DNA of 64,000 bases from Anianabacter salinae (GTDB taxonomy: Bacteria > Pseudomonadota > Alphaproteobacteria > Rhodobacterales > Rhodobacteraceae): assembly GCF_019061145.1 (NCBI RefSeq), contig NZ_JAHQZS010000003.1:372001-436000 (forward strand). Direction: 5' to 3'. Position numbers and translations under genes: made by a program. This document shows, one piece after another, positions 2,537-64,000 of this stretch; position 1 is the first letter of the stretch, and each line of letters opens with the position of its first letter. Below the pieces are notes generated by a model, which worked only from the letters and a program-made list of their open reading frames with translations, had not been told where the DNA came from and made no database searches.

Positions 2537-3310
2537 ATGAAAAAACCGAAATGGATCATCGAGAAAGAGCAGGCGCGGCGGGCCGAGGCGGCGGAAACCG
2601 TCTGGCTGTTCGGCTTGCACGCGGTGCGCGATGCGCTGGTGAACCCCCGGCGCGAGAAGCTGCGGCTGATCGTCACCAAGAACGCCGCCGACCGTCTGGG
2701 CGAGGCGCTGGCGGCGGGCGGGCCGGAGCCCGAGATTGTCGATCCGCGCAAGTTCACCGCGCCGCTCGATCCAGGCTCGGTGCACCAGGGCGCCGCGCTC
2801 GAGGTTCGGCCGCTGGACTGGGGCGGGGTGGACGCGCTGGCCGATGCGGGGCCGAGGGCGACGGTGGTGCTGCTGGACCGGGTGACCGATCCGCACAACG
2901 TGGGTGCCATCCTCCGCTCGGCCGAGGTGTTCGGTGCGCGCGCGGTGATCGCGCCGAAGCGGCATGCGGCGCCCGAGACCGGCGCGCTGGCCAAGACTGC
3001 GAGCGGCGCGCTGGAGCGGCAGCCCTATCTGCGGGTGCCCAACCTTGCGAACGCGATGGAGACGCTGCGCGAGATGGGGTTTCACCTGCTGGGCCTCGAC
3101 GGCGAAGCGACCGCAACCTTGGCCGAAGGGCTGGGGCAGGCGGGCGATGCGCCTGTCGGGCTGGTGCTGGGCGCCGAGGGCCCCGGCCTGCGCGAGCGCA
3201 CGCGCGAGACCTGCGACACTCTGGTCCGCATCCCCTTTGCGGGACAATTCGGATCGCTCAACGTCTCGAATGCGGCGGCGGTGTCCCTATATGCTGCGGG
3301 GACACGCTGA
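2537..3310 (+). CDS. rlmB: 23S rRNA 2'-O-methyltransferase, RlmB/TrmH family
   Basis: This is a 257-residue SPOUT methyltransferase. The N-terminal substrate-binding domain (VWLFGLHAVRDAL, about residue 23) is followed by the catalytic domain with all three SPOUT motifs: LLDRVTDPHNVGAILRSAE with the catalytic Asn/Arg, LVLGAEGPGLR, and IPFAGQFGSLNVSNAAAVSL, which forms the trefoil knot. The family methylates ribose of 23S rRNA (G2251 in E. coli) using S-adenosylmethionine. The ATG at 2537 begins the lysine-rich MKKPKW; the upstream in-frame extension runs through the tRNA and is not real. Another TrmH-family target is possible. Confidence 0.88.
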   Translation: MKKPKWIIEKEQARRAEAAETVWLFGLHAVRDALVNPRREKLRLIVTKNAADRLGEALAAGGPEPEIVDPRKFTAPLDPGSVHQGAALEVRPLDWGGVDALADAGPRATVVLLDRVTDPHNVGAILRSAEVFGARAVIAPKRHAAPETGALAKTASGALERQPYLRVPNLANAMETLREMGFHLLGLDGEATATLAEGLGQAGDAPVGLVLGAEGPGLRERTRETCDTLVRIPFAGQFGSLNVSNAAAVSLYAAGTR

Positions 3311-3649: not shown

Positions 3650-3834
3650 CCTGCGCGCGGAAATATGGTCGAATTGTGTTTTTCAATCACGTTTTCATGA
3701 CGCGGCCTTTAAAGCGGCGCCGTGTTACCTATTTCTCACACATGGACGCGGGTTCGGAACACCCGCGCTTCACTTCACTGTCCCTCGTTCCGTGACTGGC
3801 GCCCAAGGTTCACCTTGGGCGCTTTTTTCTTTTC
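3650..3834 (+). ncRNA. candidate small RNA or structured 3' UTR
   Basis: The 220-base gap between two rightward genes is not coding. It contains a hairpin CGCGGGT (3747-3753) / ACCCGCG (3761-3767) and ends in a strong intrinsic terminator with a pyrimidine tail. A terminator this strong so far from the upstream stop, and just before the next gene, fits a separate small transcript. No convincing promoter was identified, so the start is arbitrary. An alternative is a structured 3' UTR of the zinc-ribbon gene. Confidence 0.35.
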
Positions 3835-3835
3835 G
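3799..3835 (+). terminator. intrinsic terminator
   Basis: A perfect 10-base-pair stem (GCGCCCAAGG / CCTTGGGCGC, loop TTCA) is followed directly by TTTTTTCTTTT. It separates the upstream transcript from the CoA-binding protein gene that starts at 3858. Confidence 0.9.
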
Positions 3836-3857
3836 TGGCGGTGATAGAAGGCAGGCC

Positions 3858-4331
3858 ATGAGCTATTCGGATGCCCATCTCAGGGAGGTCCTGACGCGGA
3901 CGCGGACCATTGCCTGCGTCGGCGTGTCGATCAATCCGGTGCGGCCAAGCTATTATGTGGCGCGCTATCTGACGCTCAAGGGCTTCGTGGTGCACCCGGT
4001 CAATCCCGGTCATGCCGGAACCCGCCTGTTCGGCCGCGAAATCCGCGCGTCGCTGGGGCAGGTGCCGGACCCCGAAGCGGTGGACATGGTGGACATCTTC
4101 CGCCGGTCCGAGCATGTGCCCCCGGTGGTGGAGGAGGCGCTGGAGGTGTTTCCCAACCTGTCGACGGTCTGGATGCAGATCGGGGTCGAGAATTCCGAGG
4201 CCGCCGCGATGGCCGAGGCGCGCGGCGTGACGGTGATCCAGAACCGCTGCCCCAAGATCGAATACCAGCGCCTGTTCGGAGAGCTGCGGATGGGCGGGTT
4301 CAACACCGGGATCATCTCGTCGAAGCTGTAG
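3858..4331 (+). CDS. CoA-binding (YccU-type) protein
   Basis: This is a 157-residue protein consisting of a single Rossmann-like CoA-binding domain. Near residue 18 it has IACVGVSINPVRPSYYVARY, the usual CoA_binding start, followed by GFVVHPVNPG and VWMQIGVENSEAA. The ending VIQNRCPKIEYQRL is typical of the YccU group, close relatives of the alpha subunit of succinyl-CoA synthetase. The biological role of this group is not settled. The ATG at 3858 is chosen because upstream in-frame sequence crosses the terminator. It is transcribed alone, convergent with hisE. Confidence 0.85.
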   Translation: MSYSDAHLREVLTRTRTIACVGVSINPVRPSYYVARYLTLKGFVVHPVNPGHAGTRLFGREIRASLGQVPDPEAVDMVDIFRRSEHVPPVVEEALEVFPNLSTVWMQIGVENSEAAAMAEARGVTVIQNRCPKIEYQRLFGELRMGGFNTGIISSKL

Positions 4332-4378
4332 GTCTTGCGCCGCCTTTGGCGTCGATGCTTTCAGTTTGGCGTCGCGGG

Positions 4379-4452
4379 GGGAAGGGGGGCGCTGCCCCCC
4401 TCTTGGCCTTCGGCCAATTCACCCCCCGGAGGTATTTTCAGACCAAAGATGC
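4379..4452. repeat. dispersed intergenic repeat, copy B
   Basis: Between convergent genes lies GGGGGGCGCTGCCCCCC, then a small GGCCTTCGGCC hairpin, then CCCCCCGGAGGTATTTTCAGACC and AAAGATG. On the minus strand this reads CATCTTTGGTCTGAAAATACCTCC followed by G-rich hairpins, the same order as copies A and C. Its G/C hairpins probably act as a terminator for one or both flanking genes. Confidence 0.7.
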
Positions 4453-4470
4453 GAGGCGCGTGCGTGCGGG

Positions 4471-4787
4471 TCAGCCTTTCCGGGCGGCCTTTTCGTCGAT
4501 GCCTGAAGTGCCTTCGCGGCGGTCGAGTTCTGCCAGCACATCCGCGAGGGCCACGTCGCGGGCGGCGAGCATCACCAGCAGGTGATAGAGAACGTCGGCG
4601 GCCTCGGCGGTCAGTTGCGCCTTGTCGCCCGCCACGGCGGCGACGATCGCCTCGATGGCTTCCTCGCCGAATTTCTCGGCGGCTTTCTGCGGGCCCTTGG
4701 CGAGCAGGCGCGCGGTCCAGCTGCTGTCGGGATCGGCGCCCTTGCGGGCGGCGATGGTGGCGGCGAGGCGGTCGAGCGTGTGCATCA

Positions 4788-4788
<1 letters not shown>
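4471..4788 (-). CDS. hisE: phosphoribosyl-ATP pyrophosphatase
   Basis: This is a 105-residue enzyme for the second step of histidine synthesis, hydrolysing phosphoribosyl-ATP to phosphoribosyl-AMP and pyrophosphate. The MazG-like helical motif is clear: [20 protein letters not shown] followed by [18 protein letters not shown], which supply the acidic magnesium ligands. It is a stand-alone HisE, not fused to HisI. Its ATG shares one base with the hisF stop (TGATG), so translation is coupled. An in-frame second ATG follows immediately. Confidence 0.95.
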
Positions 4789-5570
<782 letters not shown>

Positions 5571-5622
5571 GGCGATGGGGTTACGGTATAGCGCGGGTCT
5601 TGGAAAGAGGCGCGCGCCAGGC

Positions 5623-6342
5623 TCACGCCGCCAGCGCGGCTAGCGCCGCACGCAGGTCGAGCGCCCCGTCATAAAGCGCGCGGCCCGAGATCGCGCCCGC
5701 GATGACGCCGGTCTGCTTCAGCGCGATCAGATCGCCCATCGACGACACGCCGCCTGAGGCGATCACCGGCACCGACACGGCGCGCGCCAGTTCCTCGGTG
5801 GCGTGCACGTTCGGGCCACCCATCGCGCCGTCGCGGTCGATGTCGGTGTAGATGATCGCGGCGATGCCGGCGTCCTCGAAACGCCTCGCCAGATCGGTGA
5901 CCATCATGTCCGTCTCTTCCGCCCAGCCGCGGGTGGCCACGCGCCCTTGCCGCGCATCGAGGCCCACCGCCACCTTGCCAGGGAAGGCGCGCGCCGCCTC
6001 GATCACCAGATCGGGGTTCTCGACCGCCACGGTGCCGAGGATCACGCGGGCGAGCCCCTTGTCCAGCCACATGCCGATCGTGTCCATGTCGCGGATGCCG
6101 CCGCCCAGCTGGCAGGGGACAGAGACGCGCGCGAGGATCGCCTCGACCGCTGCCGCGTTCACCGGTTGACCAGCGAAAGCGCCGTTCAGGTCGACGAGAT
6201 GCAGCCATTCGCAGCCCGCCTCCTGGAACGACAGGGCCTGCGCGGCAGGGTCGTCGCCAAATACGGTGGCCTTGTCCATGTCGCCTTTCAAAAGCCGGAC
6301 GCACTGGCCATCCTTGAGGTCGATGGCGGGGTAGAGGATCAT
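5623..6342 (-). CDS. hisA: phosphoribosylformimino-AICAR ribotide isomerase
   Basis: This is a 239-residue TIM barrel homologous to HisF. It opens ProFAR to PRFAR. Visible signatures are [16 protein letters not shown] with the general base Asp at residue 8, [11 protein letters not shown] at the first phosphate site, [14 protein letters not shown] with the second catalytic Asp, and [10 protein letters not shown] at the second phosphate site. It heads the hisA-hisF-hisE operon; hisB and hisH are not upstream, where a divergent DUF2147 gene lies instead. Confidence 0.97.
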
Positions 6343-6495
6343 GGCGGGCTCCGTCCTGTCAGTGTCGGGCGCCGTCTTGCCACGGGCGGGCGGAGGGCGC
6401 CAGTGGGCGGTGCATGCAGGTCATGACGCAAGGTCGCACTTGATGCGGCGGGGGGCAGGGCGCGATGATGCGGGCCATCTCAAGGGAGGAGACCC

Positions 6496-6885
6496 ATGAT
6501 GAAGTTTGCAAGCGTTCTGGCGCTGGCCCTCGGGCTGGCATCGCCCGCCTTCGCCGCCGATCCGGTCGAGGGCATCTGGAAGACCGAGGTCGATGACGGT
6601 GCCTATGCGCATGTCGCGATGACGCCCTGCGGCGACAAGCTGTGCGGCACGATCCACCGCACATTCAACGCCTCGGGTGAATACGAGTCGCCGAACAAGG
6701 GCAAGGTCATGGTCATCAACATGGTGCCGCAGGGCGGCGGCAAGTATGCGGGCAAGGTCTGGCGCCCGTCGAACGACAAGATCTACACCGGCAAGATGGA
6801 ACTGCAGGGCGACGCCCTCAAGCTGTCGGGATGCATCGCGGGTGGGCTTCTGTGCTCGGCGCAGGACTGGCAGCGCGTTCAGTAA
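6496..6885 (+). CDS. DUF2147 exported protein
   Basis: This is a 129-residue periplasmic protein. The signal peptide (MMKFASVLALALGLASPAFA) ends at AFAA-D, and the mature part reads DPVEGIWKTEVDDG, then CGDKLCGTIH and YAGKVWRPSNDKIYTGKMEL, the pattern of the DUF2147 family. Those proteins form small beta barrels of uncertain function. There are two cysteine pairs that could be disulfides. A good AGGGAGGAG site precedes the start. It is divergent from hisA. Confidence 0.88.
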   Translation: MMKFASVLALALGLASPAFAADPVEGIWKTEVDDGAYAHVAMTPCGDKLCGTIHRTFNASGEYESPNKGKVMVINMVPQGGGKYAGKVWRPSNDKIYTGKMELQGDALKLSGCIAGGLLCSAQDWQRVQ

Positions 6886-6910
6886 CCTGCCTTGGCAGCG
6901 CACCATTGCA

Positions 6911-6942
6911 AAGGCCCCGGAGATCGCTCTCCGGGGCCTTTT
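6911..6942. terminator. bidirectional intrinsic terminator
   Basis: A 13-base-pair perfect stem (AAGGCCCCGGAGA / TCTCCGGGGCCTT, loop TCGC) is flanked by A and T runs on both sides. It serves the DUF2147 gene from the left and the RND efflux operon from the right. Confidence 0.92.
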
Positions 6943-6943
6943 G

Positions 6944-9900
6944 TCATTCGGCGGCGCGCAGGGCGGGCGCCATGGGCTCTCCGTGCGGCGGCGACGGCGC
7001 CTGTTCGGTGTCCCACAGGATCGTCGGGGATTTCACCTTGCGGGCGGCGCGGCGCAGCGCCCAGTCCTCGGCGGCCTTGCTGCCGCGTCCGAAAGACAGC
7101 CGCCCCAGCAGCCGTGACAGGGCCAGAACGTAGGTGTTGAACCAGACCCGGACCGCCAGCATCGACGGCGTGAAGACCAGCGTAAGGACCGTTGCGATGC
7201 CAAGGCCGAACACCACGGCGGTCGCAAGCTGCTTCCACCAGAGCGACGTCGGCGAGTCGATCGCATAGCCGCCGCCGATGAAATCGAGCGACAGGCCGAA
7301 CATCATCGGCGCAAGCCCCGCCATCGTGGTGATCGTGGTCAGAAGCACCGGGCGAATGCGATCCTCGGCGGTGCGGATGATCGCCTCGCGCCGGGGCATG
7401 TAGCTGGAATATTCCTGGTAGGTGTCGATCAGGACAATGTTGTTGTTCACCACGATCCCTGCCAGCGCGACGATCCCGGTGCCCGTCATGATGATCGAGA
7501 ACGGTTGCTGCATCACCAGCATCCCGATCAGCACGCCCGCAGTGGACAGCACCACCGCCAGAAGCACCAGCACGGCGTTGTAGACCGAGTTGAACTGCGC
7601 CAGCAGGATGATGAACATCAGGCCAAGCGCGCCTGCAAAGGCGGTTTGCAGGAAGGCCTGGCTTTCGGCCTGGTCCTCCTGGTCGCCGGTCCATTCCCAG
7701 TCGACCCCGGCGGGCAGCGGTTTCTCGGTTTCAAGCCAGGTCGTCAGCGCCGCAATGCGCTCGTTGGCATTCAGCGGCGACAGGCTTGCCTCGCCGGATG
7801 CCACGGCGTCGATCAGCGCGGCGCGGTCTGCGGCCTCGATCACGCGGTAACCGGCGCCGTCGGTATCCCGCACGGCGGGCGCGGCGGTGCTGCCGTCCTC
7901 AAGGGCCTGAACGATACCCAGAGTGGCGCCGTCCGGTCCGCTGACGATGGACATGCGTTCGGCGACGGCGGCCTTGATGTCGAAATAACGCTCCTGGTCG
8001 ACGCGGTTGATCTCGCCCAGCTTCTGCACCGGCGAGCGGGTGACGAAGTTGGACAGCGGCACCAGACCGTCCGCCGTGCGCAGTTTCAGGCTGTCGAGCG
8101 TCGAGAGGACGCGGTCGTCTTCGGGAAACCGCACGCGGATGTCGATTTCCTCGTCCGAGGTGTCGACGCGCATGGTGTCAAGAAGCAGGCCACGGGTGAC
8201 AAGCTGCACCATGCCGCCGACCGTCGCCACATCCGCGCCGTAGCGGCCCGCCGCCTCGACATCGACATCGATCTGCCAGTCGATGCCGGGCAGGGGGCGG
8301 GTGTCGTCCACGTCGGCAAGGCCCGGCATCTGGTCGAAATAGCCGCGCGCGGTGGCGGTCGCGGTCAGAAGATCGTTCCAGTTCTCGCCTTTGACGCGCA
8401 GCGCCACCGGCTTGGGCGAGGCAGGCCCCATCGCAAGGTTCAGGATCTCGGTCTGGATGCCGGGGATCGTGGCCAGCTTTTCCTCGAGCCGCGCCAGAAC
8501 GGCGTCGCCGTCATAGGCGGGATCGATCTCGGTGTCTTCGAAGGGCAGGATGCCGAACAGCCGGATTTCGTTGGTCACGCGCGGGCGATCCTCCCATCGC
8601 ACCAGTTCCATCTGGACCTGCCCGATGGCGTCCTTGGGGCCCTCGGCGCCGCCGGTGTTGGAATTCAGCCCGCCGTCGCCCGCGAAGGAGAACGCGCTTT
8701 CGACGCCTTGGGTCGACAGCACGGCCGCCTCGACCTCGCGCACCAGCGCGTCCTTTTCCGCAAGCGACAGGTTGCCGCGCGCCTTGACGTAGACAAGTGC
8801 CTGCTCGGGTTCGCTTTCGACGAAGAACTCGACGCCGTAGTTGTTCTGGCCGAAGTAGGTGAAGGTCGAGATCACGAAGCCGATCACTGCCGCGATGGTC
8901 ACGATCGGCATGATCGGATTGCCGACGATGAAGCGGATGAAATAGCCGAACGGCGTACGGCCGTGACCCGCCTTGATCCGGCGCGGCTTGCGCTCGATCT
9001 TGGCTGCGCCAAGTGTGACCGAGGTGAGCACGGCACCGCCAAGGAACAGCACAGCGCCGGGCAGCCAGGCGATGGCACCGGGCATGGGCGACTGCGTGCC
9101 GCCGAAGACATAGCCGGGGTTCAGAAGCTGCATCGCGCCGACGAAGACCATGTAGGCGGAGGGGATCACCAGCGCCGCGCGCAGGGCCCACCACGGAACG
9201 CTGCGCTTGAGCGCGGTTGACGCGCGTTCGAACGTGCGGCTCAACCGGCCTGCGACGCCGCCCATGACGGGAAGGAAGATCAGCGCCACGATCAGCGACG
9301 CCGACAGCACGAAGATCAGCGTGACCGGCAGCATCCCCATGAACTGCCCCGGCACGCCCGGCCAGAACAGCATCGGCAGGAACGCGCACAGCGTCGTCGC
9401 GGTGGAGGACACGATCGGCCAGAACATCCGCTGCGCCGCCTCGACATAGGCGGTCATCGGGCCAGAGCCTTCCTGGATGCGCTTGTCGGCGTATTCCACG
9501 ACGACGATGGCCCCGTCGACCAGCATCCCCACGGCCAGGATCAGGCCGAACATCACGATGTTCGACACCGTGACGCCCATCGCCGCGAGGAACACGAAGC
9601 ACAGCAGGAACGACGTCGGGATCGCGAAGCCGACCAGGAGCGCGGACCGGGTGCCAAGTGCCGCCAGCACCACGATCATCACCAGCGCGATGGCGGTCAG
9701 GACCGATCCCTCAAGCTGGCTGACCATCGAGGCGACGGTGAAGCTTTGGTCGTTCGAGGTGCCGACATTGACGGCGGCCTGAAGCTCTTGTGGCCAGGAC
9801 ACCTGCGCTTCGGCCACCTCTGCGCGCACCAGCGCCGCGGTGTCGATCAGGTTGTAGCCCTTGCGCTTGACCACCTGCAGCGCGATCGTCGCGTCACCGT

Positions 9901-50627: not shown

Positions 50628-50711
50628 GCGGGTGTGGCGGAATTGGTAGACGCACCAGATTTAGGTTCTGGCGCCTTTGGCGTGGGGGTTCGAGTCCCTT
50701 CACCCGCACCA
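50628..50711 (+). tRNA. tRNA-Leu (TAG)
   Basis: The sequence folds as a class II tRNA. Acceptor GCGGGTG pairs with CACCCGC, the anticodon arm is CCAGA-TTTAGGT-TCTGG with anticodon TAG at 50662-50664, there is a variable arm and a GGTTCGAGTCC T arm, and CCA is encoded. It lies between nnr and tig. Confidence 0.96.
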
Positions 50712-59834: not shown

Positions 59835-61097
59835 ATGCGTCGAGTGGTGATCACGGGTCTGGGTCTGGTAACTCCGCTGGCATGCGGGGTCGAGGAAAGC
59901 TGGAAGCGTCTTCTGGACGGCGAGTCCGGTGCGGACCGGATCAAATCCTTCGACCCGTCGCGGGTGGCCACGACGTATGCCTGCGAGGTTCCACGCGGCG
60001 ACGGGTCGGACGGGACGTTCAACCCGGACGACTGGATGGAGCCCAAGGAACAGCGCAAGGTCGATACGTTCATCATGTACGGCATGGCGGCGGCGATCCA
60101 GGCGGTGCGGGATTCGGGCTGGATGCCCGAGACCGATGAGGACCGCGAGCGCACCGGCGTGATGATCGGGTCGGGGATCGGCGGGCTGAACACGATTGCC
60201 GAGACGGCTGTGCTGATCAAGGAAAAGGGTCCGCGCCGGGTGTCGCCATTCTTTATCCCGAGCGCGCTTATCAACCTCGTGTCGGGGCAGGTGTCGATCA
60301 AGTACGGCTTCAAGGGGCCGAACCATGCGGTCGTGACGGCCTGTTCCACCGGCGCGCACGCCATCGGGGATGCGGCGCGGCTGATCCAGTGGGGAGATGC
60401 AGAAGTGATGGTCGCGGGCGGCTGCGAGGCGTCGATCTCGGAAATCGGGATCGCGGGCTTCAACGCCTGCAAGGCGCTGTCGACCAAGCGCGCGGACGAT
60501 CCGAAGACGGCCAGCCGGCCCTACGACGCGGACCGCGACGGGTTCGTGATGGGCGAGGGCGCCGGGATCGTCGTGCTTGAGGAATACGAGCACGCCAAGG
60601 CGCGCGGCGCGAAGATCTATGCCGAGGTGCTGGGCTATGGCCTGTCGGGCGACGCCTATCACATCACGGCCCCGGCAGAGGATGGCGACGGCGGCTTCCG
60701 CGCGATGAAGGCCGCCCTGGCACGCGCCGGGCTGGAGCCGTCGGATATCGACTACATCAACGCGCATGGCACCTCGACGATGGCGGATACCATCGAGCTG
60801 GCAGCGGTCGAGCGGTTGCTGGGGGATGCGGCGGACACGGCGACGATGTCGTCGACGAAATCTTCGATCGGGCATCTTCTTGGGGCCGCTGGATCGGTCG
60901 AGGCGATCTTCTGCGTGCTGGCGCTGCGCGATCAGGTCGCCCCGCCGACGATCAATCTCGACAATCCCGCCGTGACGCCGAGGCTGGACCTTGCGCCGAA
61001 CGCCAAGCGGGAACGCAAGATCGACGTCGCCCTGTCGAACAGCTTTGGCTTTGGCGGCACCAATGCGTCTCTGGTCATCGGGAAGGTGAAGCCCTGA
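59835..61097 (+). CDS. fabF: 3-oxoacyl-ACP synthase II
   Basis: This is a 420-residue condensing enzyme. The active-site Cys lies in TACSTGAHAIGDA, with the histidines in NAHGTST and SSIGHLLGAAGS. NSFGFGGTNASLV is the C-terminal signature. It elongates acyl chains and is important for cis-vaccenate formation. The ATG at 59835 is preferred. Its stop overlaps the mltG start by one base. Confidence 0.97.
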   Translation: MRRVVITGLGLVTPLACGVEESWKRLLDGESGADRIKSFDPSRVATTYACEVPRGDGSDGTFNPDDWMEPKEQRKVDTFIMYGMAAAIQAVRDSGWMPETDEDRERTGVMIGSGIGGLNTIAETAVLIKEKGPRRVSPFFIPSALINLVSGQVSIKYGFKGPNHAVVTACSTGAHAIGDAARLIQWGDAEVMVAGGCEASISEIGIAGFNACKALSTKRADDPKTASRPYDADRDGFVMGEGAGIVVLEEYEHAKARGAKIYAEVLGYGLSGDAYHITAPAEDGDGGFRAMKAALARAGLEPSDIDYINAHGTSTMADTIELAAVERLLGDAADTATMSSTKSSIGHLLGAAGSVEAIFCVLALRDQVAPPTINLDNPAVTPRLDLAPNAKRERKIDVALSNSFGFGGTNASLVIGKVKP

Positions 61098-62251
61098 TGT
61101 GGCGGTCCGTTGCCTCCAACACCCTGACATTGCTGATTGTCCTGATGATCGGGGCGGGGGCTTTCGTGGCTTGGGCGCAGAGCCAGTACACCAGCGCCGG
61201 ACCGCTGGATGAGGCGATCTGCCTGCGGGTCGCGCCGGGGTCGAACCTGACGGCGGTGTCGAGCGAGTTGGCCGAGCGGGGCGCGGTTTCGAACGGCCGC
61301 ATCTTCCGCGTGGGGGCGGATTATTCCGACAAGGCGGACCAGTTGAAGGCGGGGAGTTTCCTTGTTCCGGCGGGGGCGTCGATGGAAGAGATCGTCGACC
61401 TGGTCACGGTCGGGGGTCAGTCGACCTGCGGCACCGAGATCGTCTACCGGATCGGCGTGACGGCCAGCAGCGTGCAGGTGCGCGAGCTTGACCCGGCGTC
61501 GAACCGCTATGTCGAGCGCGCGGAGTTCTCGCCGGGCGAAGGCGAGGCGCCGGAGCTGTTCACCGAAATGCGGCAGCGGCAGGATACCCGCTACCGGATC
61601 GCGGTGGCCGAGGGCGTGACGAGTTGGCAGGTGGTCGAGGGGCTGAAGGCCGTCGACGTGCTGGAGGGCGAGATCGCGGCGGTCCCGGCCGAGGGGGCGC
61701 TTGCGCCCGACAGCTACGAGGTGCGCGTGGGAGCGCAGCGGCAGACGCTGCTGGACCAGATGCAGGAGCGCCAGACAGCGCGGCTGGACGAGGCCTGGCG
61801 CAACCGCGACGACGGGCTGCCGATCGAGACGCCAGAGGAGGCGCTGATCCTCGCCTCGTTGATCGAGAAAGAGACCGGCGGTGCAGACGAGCGCGGGCTG
61901 GTGGCGAGCGTCTTCGTCAACCGGCTGGAGCAGGGGATGCGGCTGCAGACCGACCCGACGGTGATTTACGGCATCACCAATGGGCAGGGTGTGCTGGGGC
62001 GCGGCATTCGCCAGAGCGAGTTGCGTGCCGAGACGCCGTATAACACCTATGTCATCAACGGCTTGCCGCCGACGCCGATTGCCAACCCGGGCTTGGCGAG
62101 CATCGAGGCGGCCGTGAACCCCGATGAGACGGACTATGTGTTCTTTGTCGCCAAGACGCTGGACCCGCGCGACGGGCACAATTTCGCGGAGACGCTGGAC
62201 GAGCATAACCGCAATGTCGCGGCCTATCGGGCGCTGGAGGCGAACCAGTAA
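61097..62251 (+). CDS. mltG: endolytic murein transglycosylase
   Basis: This is a 384-residue membrane-anchored YceG-like enzyme. One helix at the N-terminus, then a LysM-like region, and the catalytic domain with LASLIEKETGG (the Glu is catalytic) and LQTDPTVIYGITNG. It cuts nascent glycan strands. It ends the fab-mltG block and lies directly upstream of the GTA cluster, an arrangement I recall from other Rhodobacterales. Confidence 0.95.
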   Translation: MWRSVASNTLTLLIVLMIGAGAFVAWAQSQYTSAGPLDEAICLRVAPGSNLTAVSSELAERGAVSNGRIFRVGADYSDKADQLKAGSFLVPAGASMEEIVDLVTVGGQSTCGTEIVYRIGVTASSVQVRELDPASNRYVERAEFSPGEGEAPELFTEMRQRQDTRYRIAVAEGVTSWQVVEGLKAVDVLEGEIAAVPAEGALAPDSYEVRVGAQRQTLLDQMQERQTARLDEAWRNRDDGLPIETPEEALILASLIEKETGGADERGLVASVFVNRLEQGMRLQTDPTVIYGITNGQGVLGRGIRQSELRAETPYNTYVINGLPPTPIANPGLASIEAAVNPDETDYVFFVAKTLDPRDGHNFAETLDEHNRNVAAYRALEANQ

Positions 62252-62288
62252 AGCGCGGTGATGTAACTAACTGGAAACGCTTGTTTTC

Positions 62289-62317
62289 TTGACTTTGCGC
62301 ACGGTTGCGCGTACTGG
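62289..62317 (+). promoter_or_regulatory. candidate promoter of the GTA cluster
   Basis: TTGACT (62289-62294) and TACTGG (62312-62317) are separated by 17 bases. An inverted repeat GCGCA-CGGT-TGCGC lies in the spacer, as an operator might. It is the best sigma-70-like match in the 162-base gap. Confidence 0.5.
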
Positions 62318-62341
62318 TCTGGACAAGCTGGAAGACGTGGG

Positions 62342-62382
62342 CGGGCGGCCCGGGGTGACCCGGGACCGCCCGTTTTCGTTTC
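62342..62382 (+). terminator. strong hairpin terminator before the GTA genes
   Basis: The stem CGGGCGG-CCCGGG / CCCGGG-A-CCGCCCG (one-base bulge, loop GTGA) is followed by TTTTCGTTT. It follows the candidate promoter by only about 25 bases. It may end the mltG transcript or act as an attenuator for the GTA operon. Confidence 0.85.
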
Positions 62383-62412
62383 TCGTGCGGGCAGCAGGAG
62401 AGAGGCACCAAA

Positions 62413-62739
62413 ATGGCAACGAAGAAGGCCAGACGAAAAACCTGTGACAGGCGCAGGAGGCTGCAGATCGCCGCGAAGAACCTCAACCGCCTGTCAGGAT
62501 CGCTGGATGCCCTGATCGAGCGGATGGAAGCGGGCGAGGTGGTGACACCCGGCGATGTGACAGGCGCGGTCACGGGACTCTCGAAGGCGCTCAACAATGT
62601 GGTCAGCGAAGGAGCGAAGGTCGATGACGCACTTGCAAGGGAAGACGGGATCGAAGGCGGATACGCCCTCGATCTCGAGGCCGCCCGGGCCGAGATCGGG
62701 GGCCGCCTGGATCGCCTCCGGCGGGCCGGAGCGGACTGA
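62413..62739 (+). CDS. GTA gene 1-like small protein (probable small terminase)
   Basis: This is a 108-residue protein with a very basic start (MATKKARRKTCDRRRRLQIA) and an otherwise helical, coiled-coil-like body. Size, location in front of the large terminase, and overlap with it match GTA g1, the small terminase in Rhodobacter capsulatus. The AGGAG site sits 12 bases before ATG. The call rests mainly on position; sequence alone is not distinctive. Confidence 0.7.
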   Translation: MATKKARRKTCDRRRRLQIAAKNLNRLSGSLDALIERMEAGEVVTPGDVTGAVTGLSKALNNVVSEGAKVDDALAREDGIEGGYALDLEAARAEIGGRLDRLRRAGAD

Positions 62740-64000
62740 GGCGTTCCTTGGCGGACTGACGGAGGGAGGGCTTTTGGCCCTCCCTTTTCTGTTCGAGTTC
62801 TGGGCGCTTCCGCACCAGCTGCCGCCCGGCGGTGACTGGCGGTCCTGGGTGATCCTTGGCGGGCGCGGGGCGGGCAAGACCCGCGCGGGCGCGGAATGGG
62901 TGCGCGGCATGGTCGAGGGCGCGGGGCCGCGCGATCCGGGGAAGGCGCACTGTGTGGCGCTGGTGGGCGAGACGATTGCGCAGGTGCGCGAGGTGATGGT
63001 GTTCGGGCCGTCCGGCATCCTGGCCTGTTCACCCAAGGACCGGATGCCGAAGTGGGAGGCGACGCGGAAACGGCTGGTCTGGCCGAACGGGGCGGTGGCG
63101 CAGGTGTTCTCGGCGCATGAGCCAGAGGCGTTGCGGGGGCCCCAGTTCGACGCGGCGTGGTGCGACGAGCTGGCGAAGTGGCGCAAGGCGGGGGAAACCT
63201 GGGACATGCTGCAATTCGCGTTGCGGCTGGGGGATCGCCCGCAGGCGGTGGTGACGACGACGCCGCGCAACGTCGATGTCCTGAAGCGGCTGCTGGCGCT
63301 GCCGTCGACGGTCATGAGCCACGCGCCGACCGAGGCGAACCGGGCCTATCTGGCGGAGAGCTTTCTTGAGGAAGTGCGCGCGCGCTATGGCGGCACGCGG
63401 CTTGGGCGGCAAGAACTGGACGGGGTGTTGCTGGACGACGTGGAGGGCGCGCTGTGGACGTCGGCGCGGCTGGAGGCGTGCCGGATCGAGCGGGCGCCTG
63501 TGCTGTCGCGGATCGTCGTGGCGGTCGATCCGCCGGTGACGGGGCACGGACGCTCGGACGCCTGCGGGATCGTGGTGGTCGGCGCGGTGACGGAGGGGCC
63601 GCCGCAGGACTGGCGTGCGGTGGTGCTGGAGGATGCGTCGGTGCAGGGCGTCTCGCCGCTGGAATGGGCGCGCGCGGCGTTGGAGGCGATGGAGCGGCAT
63701 GGGGCGGAGCGGCTGGTGGCCGAGGTGAATCAGGGCGGCGATCTGGTCGAGGCGGTGGTGCGGCAGCTGGACCCGGTGGTGGCCTACCGCGCGGTGCGGG
63801 CGGCGCGCGGCAAGGCGGCGCGGGCCGAGCCGGTGGCCGCGCTTTACGAGCAGGGGCGGGTTGCGCATGTGCGGGGACTGGGCGCGCTTGAGGACGAGAT
63901 GTGCCGGATGACGGCGCAAGGCTACCGCGGGCAAGGATCGCCCGACCGGGTGGATGCGCTGGTCTGGGCCGTGCAGGAGTTGATCCTTGGTCCGGCGGCG
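62624..64000 (+). CDS. large terminase subunit, GTA g2-like (truncated by window end)
   Basis: The ORF starts at ATG 62624, inside the preceding gene (116-base overlap, different frame), and runs off the right edge with 459 codons visible. Walker A is ILGGRGAGKTRAGAEW (about residue 76), Walker B is FDAAWCDELAKW, and VAVDPPVTGHGRSDACGI fits the start of the nuclease domain. It is the ATP-driven DNA packaging motor. The overlap with a small upstream gene and its position beside mltG point to a GTA rather than an ordinary prophage. Confidence 0.88.
   Translation, partial: MTHLQGKTGSKADTPSISRPPGPRSGAAWIASGGPERTEAFLGGLTEGGLLALPFLFEFWALPHQLPPGGDWRSWVILGGRGAGKTRAGAEWVRGMVEGAGPRDPGKAHCVALVGETIAQVREVMVFGPSGILACSPKDRMPKWEATRKRLVWPNGAVAQVFSAHEPEALRGPQFDAAWCDELAKWRKAGETWDMLQFALRLGDRPQAVVTTTPRNVDVLKRLLALPSTVMSHAPTEANRAYLAESFLEEVRARYGGTRLGRQELDGVLLDDVEGALWTSARLEACRIERAPVLSRIVVAVDPPVTGHGRSDACGIVVVGAVTEGPPQDWRAVVLEDASVQGVSPLEWARAALEAMERHGAERLVAEVNQGGDLVEAVVRQLDPVVAYRAVRAARGKAARAEPVAALYEQGRVAHVRGLGALEDEMCRMTAQGYRGQGSPDRVDALVWAVQELILGPAA

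Follow-up and report, generated by a model that had tools for sequence, protein, structure and literature searches.

Gene content points to an RcGTA-family gene transfer agent at the right edge of an Anianabacter salinae window, with a covarying terminator-like hairpin in the leader of its first gene

The window analysed here is a stretch of 64,000 nucleotides from Anianabacter salinae (G000:C9:372001-436000). It breaks off inside a large terminase gene (terL, g2), which ends at L002:3036, 36 bases past the window edge. The question raised by this locus is whether its two overlapping terminase genes begin a gene transfer agent (GTA), a domesticated phage packaging host DNA, as the initial annotation had proposed, or belong to a prophage. 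To judge from the genes alone, a complete GTA of the family of the Rhodobacter capsulatus GTA (RcGTA) almost certainly starts near the right edge, and the window reaches into its second gene. The initial annotation is thus correct, and the cluster as such is ordinary: a new instance of a well-known element. The part that may matter is the leader of g1, where a hairpin may explain how the whole operon is switched on. The coordinates of all features are collected in Table 1.

Table 1. Features of the cluster, its flanks and the g1 leader. Positions refer to the window unless marked L002 (window position = L002 position + 61000).
Feature	Position	Strand	Basis
mltG/yceG, housekeeping left flank outside the element	61097-62251	+	Pfam YceG, 261 bits
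-35 TTGACT	62289-62294	+	TTGAC without variation across 58 aligned leaders; distance to the box 32-34 nt in 88/88
GCGCACGGTTGCGC in the -35/-10 spacer, candidate binding element of GafA/GafZ type	62297-62310	+	Likeness to Caulobacter ZBE
-10 TACTGG, 17 nt after the -35	62312-62317	+	Leader alignment
Conserved initially transcribed box ACAAGCTGGAAGACGTGGGC, 20 nt	62323-62342	+	Box search
GC-rich leader hairpin, terminator-like	62339-62375	+	Fold, covariation, T tract
T tract TTTTCGTTTC following the hairpin; TTTTTCATTTC in the consensus	62373-62382	+	T run nearly invariant in 58 leaders
g1 ribosome site AGGAGAGAGG	62396-62405	+	
g1, small terminase (TerS), 108 aa	62413-62739	+	Ribosome site, gp1 similarity, three-helix model
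g1/g2 overlap, 116 bases	62624-62739	+	Encodes the C-terminal helix of g1 and, in a second frame, the N-terminus of TerL (RSGAAWIAS)
g2, large terminase (TerL)	62624-64000	+	Pfam Terminase_6N/6C, identity to R. capsulatus gp2, tree
Portal	L002 3149-4384		
Protease	L002 4377-4937		
HK97 capsid	L002 4963-6159		
Connectors	L002 6211-7645		
Major tail protein	L002 7669-8082		
g10	L002 8086-8400		
Tape measure	L002, end 9243		NF058675
g12	L002 9258-9887		
Hub	L002 9884-10768		
NlpC peptidase	L002, end 11211		
Megatron	L002 11208-15143		NF048004
DUF2793 tail fibre	L002 15136-15828		
DUF7742	L002 15832-16140		
cysE, right flank	L002 16304-17125		

Gene content and relationships of the cluster

The 14 kb that follow comprise head and tail genes in the RcGTA order g1-g15, tail fibre and g16, with g3.5 as the sole absentee. 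The initial annotation had expected portal, protease, capsid and tail genes in GTA order within about 14 kb to the right, and this is the arrangement found. Two RcGTA-specific NCBIfam models match above their cut-offs, namely the model NF058675 of the short tape measure (about 220 aa; 339 bits, cut-off 220) and the megatron model NF048004 (1887 bits, cut-off 800). For the capsid, portal and megatron, the best solved relatives are RcGTA proteins. The DUF2793 protein, a domain reported as the GTA tail fibre (PMC10883770), matches a 230-residue chain of 8gtc, which is present in nine copies, was deposited as 'Ribonuclease III' and shares the entry with a megatron.

The comparison locus for R. capsulatus SB1003 is L238 (G421), with a capsid match of 100%; the strain assignment is our own. 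It shows the same order, g1-g15 and g16 between mltG/yceG and cysE, as also published (PMC9552610). The g2-g15 proteins of the two clusters are 52-82% identical, with 73% for gp2, and g1 matches gp1 with 43% identity across the C-terminal 53 amino acids (E 3e-7). As in R. capsulatus, the activator GafA and the lysis genes are encoded in trans: GafA (DUF6456, 190 bits) is a 360-residue reading frame on contig C8, while the lysis pair on contig C1 consists of a GTA_holin_3TM protein (101 bits) and an adjacent endolysin-like reading frame. The two clusters differ in the tail fibre gene, which lies between g15 and g16 here and is unlinked (rcc00171) in R. capsulatus; several relatives also carry it in cis. 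They further differ in g3.5 (rcc01685), present in R. capsulatus and absent here, where portal and protease overlap by 8 bases (L002:4377-4384).

The missing g3.5 and the abundance of truncated clusters among relatives raise the prospect of a decaying, non-functional cluster, which we consider very unlikely. All other frames of the cluster are open, comparison with L008 gives pN/pS values under 1 for the structural genes (g2 not counted), and promoter, leader, GafA and lysis genes are all present. Elsewhere, g3.5 was undetected in 5 of 75 other loci, and its non-detection is recorded for L008, L021, L037, L056, L070 and L194. An R. capsulatus g3.5 knock-out still makes oblate capsids (PMC7296036).

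The host location of the cluster is fixed. The initial annotation had placed mltG directly upstream, as the YceG match bears out, and mltG precedes the cluster in 67 of 80 related loci and likewise in R. capsulatus. cysE follows the cluster in R. capsulatus and, where the region reaches far enough, in most relatives; beyond it, pdh genes occupy the opposite strand in L002. Most relatives share the gene order as well as these flanks. A fixed location running from mltG through g16 to cysE fits vertical inheritance. In a tree of 62 TerLs, the window's protein falls within a clade with 100/100 support that holds 38 Rhodobacteraceae rows, and all 13 phage TerLs lie outside it, which answers the earlier proposal to compare the terminase with GTA and phage homologues. 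No integrase, att site or replication module was found at the cluster, in line with what had been reported for its left side: the contig's closest tyrosine recombinase lies some 400 kb leftwards, and no flank repeat exceeds chance expectation. Neither the last 13 kb of the window nor the 36 kb to the right (L002, L003) contains a tRNA, the sole one between 40000 and 64000 being a tRNA-Leu at 50628.

An origin of the terminase from an active or recent prophage is accordingly of negligible probability and was rejected: every part is phage-derived and phage records contain TerL homologues of up to 54% identity, but the complete RcGTA order, the GTA-specific models above cut-off, the host flanks shared with R. 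capsulatus (cysE and the pdh genes on the right), a TerL clade free of the tested phages and the lack of a nearby integrase, att repeat or tRNA all stand against it. None of the signs that the initial annotation had named as speaking against a GTA, a linked integrase or replication module or a terminase clustering with prophages, was encountered. RcGTA order, family models, flanks, TerL clade and trans genes together indicate that its GTA reading was right. The capsid of the cluster is present in 321 of 395 family genomes searched.

By analogy with RcGTA, GafA would switch on the g1 promoter (62289-62317) in a few cells, and the g1 and g2 products would fill small capsids, made from g3-g8, with random host DNA. 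The tails would form from g9-g15 together with the DUF2793 fibre, and the holin/endolysin pair would lyse the cell.

TerLs of this type also occur in public virus collections. Among the IMG/VR viral contigs L084-L163, many, 10-17 kb long, carry a window-type TerL (66-76% identity) near one end; they resemble GTA clusters that have been entered as proviruses. Of the metagenomic 'Bacteriophage sp.' records, two (L216 and L217; MW091529 and MW462191) show a GTA-like order, one of them with host-like genes by the terminase, and may be GTAs of other Alphaproteobacteria.

The overlapping terminase genes

The large terminase carries a Walker A motif (GGRGAGKT) and a Walker B motif (AAWCDE), both recognized by the initial annotation, and matches Pfam Terminase_6N (99 bits) and Terminase_6C (67 bits). 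Its frame is open from 62597 to the window end. We chose the start at 62624, with an AAGGAG at 62609-62614, 9 nt upstream; this start with its ribosome site sets the overlap with g1 at 116 bases. The initial annotation had given the same 108-residue g1, overlapped by 116 bases in another frame, and coordinates and ribosome site agree with it. Likewise, the resemblance in order and overlap to g1 and g2 of R. capsulatus that it noted now extends to a complete cluster in RcGTA order.

On comparative sequence grounds, the overlap is not a product of chance. In all 81 loci compared, a reading frame with this relative phase stops close to one particular TerL codon, between -9 and +27 nt from it. Wobble positions in the overlap are constrained for both frames, unlike those of singly coding stretches. 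This wobble test was anchored on a TerL motif and somewhat favours conserved TerL residues; the bias is limited, since the motif was matched in 73 of the 81 loci. The same DNA encodes a conserved C-terminal helix in the g1 frame (consensus LDLDAARxEIGRRLARLR) and the conserved motif (R/K)SGAAW(L/I)AS in the TerL frame. In RcGTA, the C-terminal helix of gp1 is reported to bind TerL (PMC6854486).

The g1 protein is modelled with three helices (residues 8-39, 46-78 and 88-106; pLDDT 77), and RcGTA gp1 is also reported as a three-helix protein (PMC6854486). Residues D87, A91, R92 and R103 are invariant among 31 homologues. Searches of Pfam, PHROGs and PDB with g1 gave no match. Short, predicted to be three-helical, placed directly before terL and equipped with a conserved C-terminal helix, g1 has the features expected of a GTA small terminase. 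Its description as basic in the initial annotation is weakly true: the net charge is +3 and the N-terminus is basic, whereas three inspected homologues range from -4 to 0.

Promoter and leader of g1

Between mltG and g1 lies a compact promoter and leader (Table 1). In 88 of the 95 loci, the conserved box adjoins g1 with at most six mismatches to its consensus; further leaders that the box search had missed, such as those of L045, L034 and L021, were picked up with a covariance model. The window spacer GCGCACGGTTGCGC is identical at 11 of 14 positions to the Caulobacter ZBE palindrome GCGCCCG-CTGGCGC (PMC11150451), a value equalled by 0.1% of shuffled spacers. Across the family, the GCGnnCG part alone is recurrent, and the mean ZBE match is 6.5 against 5.9 in shuffles. 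The palindrome was therefore rejected as a family-wide feature, as a good match is seen for the window only and the family mean is barely above shuffles.

The hairpin is well defined. The 91-nt segment 62330-62420 folds at -50.6 kcal/mol (z -4.6), and for eight stem pairs 95.2% of alignment cells are paired, a proportion that falls to 38-71% when the partners are slid against each other. Double-sided changes in the stem number 39 compared with 11.2 in shuffles, of which none in 500 was as high. Of 88 leaders, 86 contain a hairpin and, after it, at least four T in five positions; once an energy limit of -12 kcal/mol is imposed, 86 of the 88 count as terminator-like, compared with 3% of shuffled ones. 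The two that fail (L064 and L076) are both from Ruegeria, and L076 is a truncated cluster. The T tract of the window is weaker than the consensus, and a simple consensus terminator scan called the R. capsulatus hairpin but not that of the window. An Rfam search with the leader returned nothing near a gathering score. In many leaders, a second inverted repeat, also short (CTCGTGC...GCATGAG), immediately precedes the ribosome site of g1; the window preserves this repeat poorly (62376-62410).

Position and persistence show, at the level of sequence comparison, that the leader element goes with g1 rather than with mltG. The distance from box to g1 has a median of 98.5 nt and is at most 101 nt in three quarters of the loci; mltG lies 0.16-3.9 kb from the element. 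The element also persists in Ruegeria loci (L044, L066 and L068 among them) whose best upstream gene, coding for a DEAD-box helicase, is oriented away from it. In the divergent loci L213 and L214 the sequence of the hairpin differs and its position is kept. In one fragmented genome, the leader element follows mltG and no TerL was found (L252, G119).

R. capsulatus has a leader with the same promoter, box and hairpin as the window. There, a GafA-bound fragment with the -10 and the start site was mapped 76-125 nt upstream of g1 (PMC6363796), which corresponds to 3065-3114 in L238; the hairpin then lies at about 3114-3138. Published mapping thus places the start site upstream of the hairpin (PMC6363796, PMC9638019). 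Because the fragment with the start site precedes the hairpin, the R. capsulatus hairpin is probably transcribed, at the fragment-level resolution of this mapping.

Possible roles of the leader hairpin

While conservation, covariation and position of the leader are observed here, its role has to be derived from related systems. In Caulobacter, GafZ is a demonstrated antiterminator that binds between the -35 and -10 of the GTA promoter (PMC11150451). The C-terminal domain of GafA is homologous to GafZ and binds the RcGTA promoter, and GafA is known as an activator acting via RpoZ (PMC9638019). That R. capsulatus GafA antiterminates has only been a speculation of the Caulobacter authors (PMC11150451), and our full-text literature search found no leader terminator described for RcGTA. 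A covarying terminator-like hairpin just after the mapped RcGTA start site offers this idea a concrete target.

We postulate that RNA polymerase leaving the GTA promoter would run into the hairpin after no more than ~50 nt and, unless GafA intervenes, would seldom get as far as g1. GafA would load at the promoter and make the polymerase read through the hairpin. Leader termination relieved by GafA is a specific and testable hypothesis, in which both termination in vivo and GafA-dependent read-through are inferred, and we judge it about equally likely to be right or wrong. Its broader form, to which we likewise give an even chance, is that most Rhodobacteraceae GTA operons, that of R. capsulatus included, are held off by an intrinsic terminator in the g1 leader, with GafA serving as activator and as processive antiterminator that loads at the spacer, like phage Q proteins. 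If true, leader termination would explain the tight silencing of a lethal 14-kb operon. Against it, activation by GafA through RpoZ may suffice.

GafA is present in the genome of the window, in R. capsulatus and in other tested leader-keeping genomes. A recognizable terminator is lacking, despite GafA and GTA genes, in L215, L260 and L261, and partly so in L212, L259, L262 and L263. The terminator therefore cannot be essential for GafA action, and a correlation between terminator and GafA presence was discarded, as terminator-negative GTA genomes also have GafA.

Compared to the known antitermination systems, the proposed arrangement shows both parallels and differences. Caulobacter crescentus has a GafZ homologous to the DUF6456 regulator found here and a GTA promoter with -35 and -10 separated by a similar GC-rich spacer element (PMC11150451). 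Its early-operon terminator consists of 150-bp repeats after the first gene (PMC11150451), whereas a single short hairpin ahead of g1 would take that role here; GafY and GafZ are separate proteins there (PMC11150451), while GafA is one fused protein. The proposed layout also resembles that of lambda Q and AlpA, with a regulator element at the promoter, a terminator soon downstream and a long late operon. GafA, whose antitermination is hypothesized, has no sequence relation to these proteins.

Alternatively, the hairpin could be an insulator only, ending read-through from upstream, unrelated to GafA. This is possible, if rather doubtful. The hairpin is terminator-like and sits between mltG and g1, and no transcript spanning yceG and g1 is seen in R. 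capsulatus (PMC9552610). However, the GTA promoter lies upstream of it, which puts it in the path of GTA transcripts as well; it also stays at g1 where mltG is 0.8-3.9 kb off, and in Ruegeria loci whose best upstream gene is reversed. A somewhat weaker candidate, which we regard as unlikely, is a 5' element for mRNA stability or translation, formed together with the second hairpin by the g1 ribosome site. The recurrence of the second inverted repeat in many leaders agrees with such a role, but the T tract that adjoins the stem hardly varies, and stability alone needs none.

The leader was rejected as a marker of complete GTAs, as it is also kept at the truncated clusters of G067, G079 and G103. 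These three capsid-less genomes (loci L254, L255 and L256, respectively) belong to three genera and retain promoter, leader and g1. In each, TerL is fused in frame from Walker B (AAWVDE) to about residue 650 of the megatron (GCAAIDKG), with the same junction. The fusion frame is open over 845 and 832 amino acids in two of the genomes and interrupted in L255. The fusion probably arose by repeated deletion at a short shared sequence, which does not by itself account for the intact frames. Other clusters (L198, L190, L066, L076, L258 and L199) are truncated by internal deletions and keep g1 and terL, and mostly g15 and g16 as well. An otherwise intact-looking cluster (L197, G031) carries an insertion of about 5.9 kb between g2 and g3, at 3746-9618 of the reverse complement of the locus.
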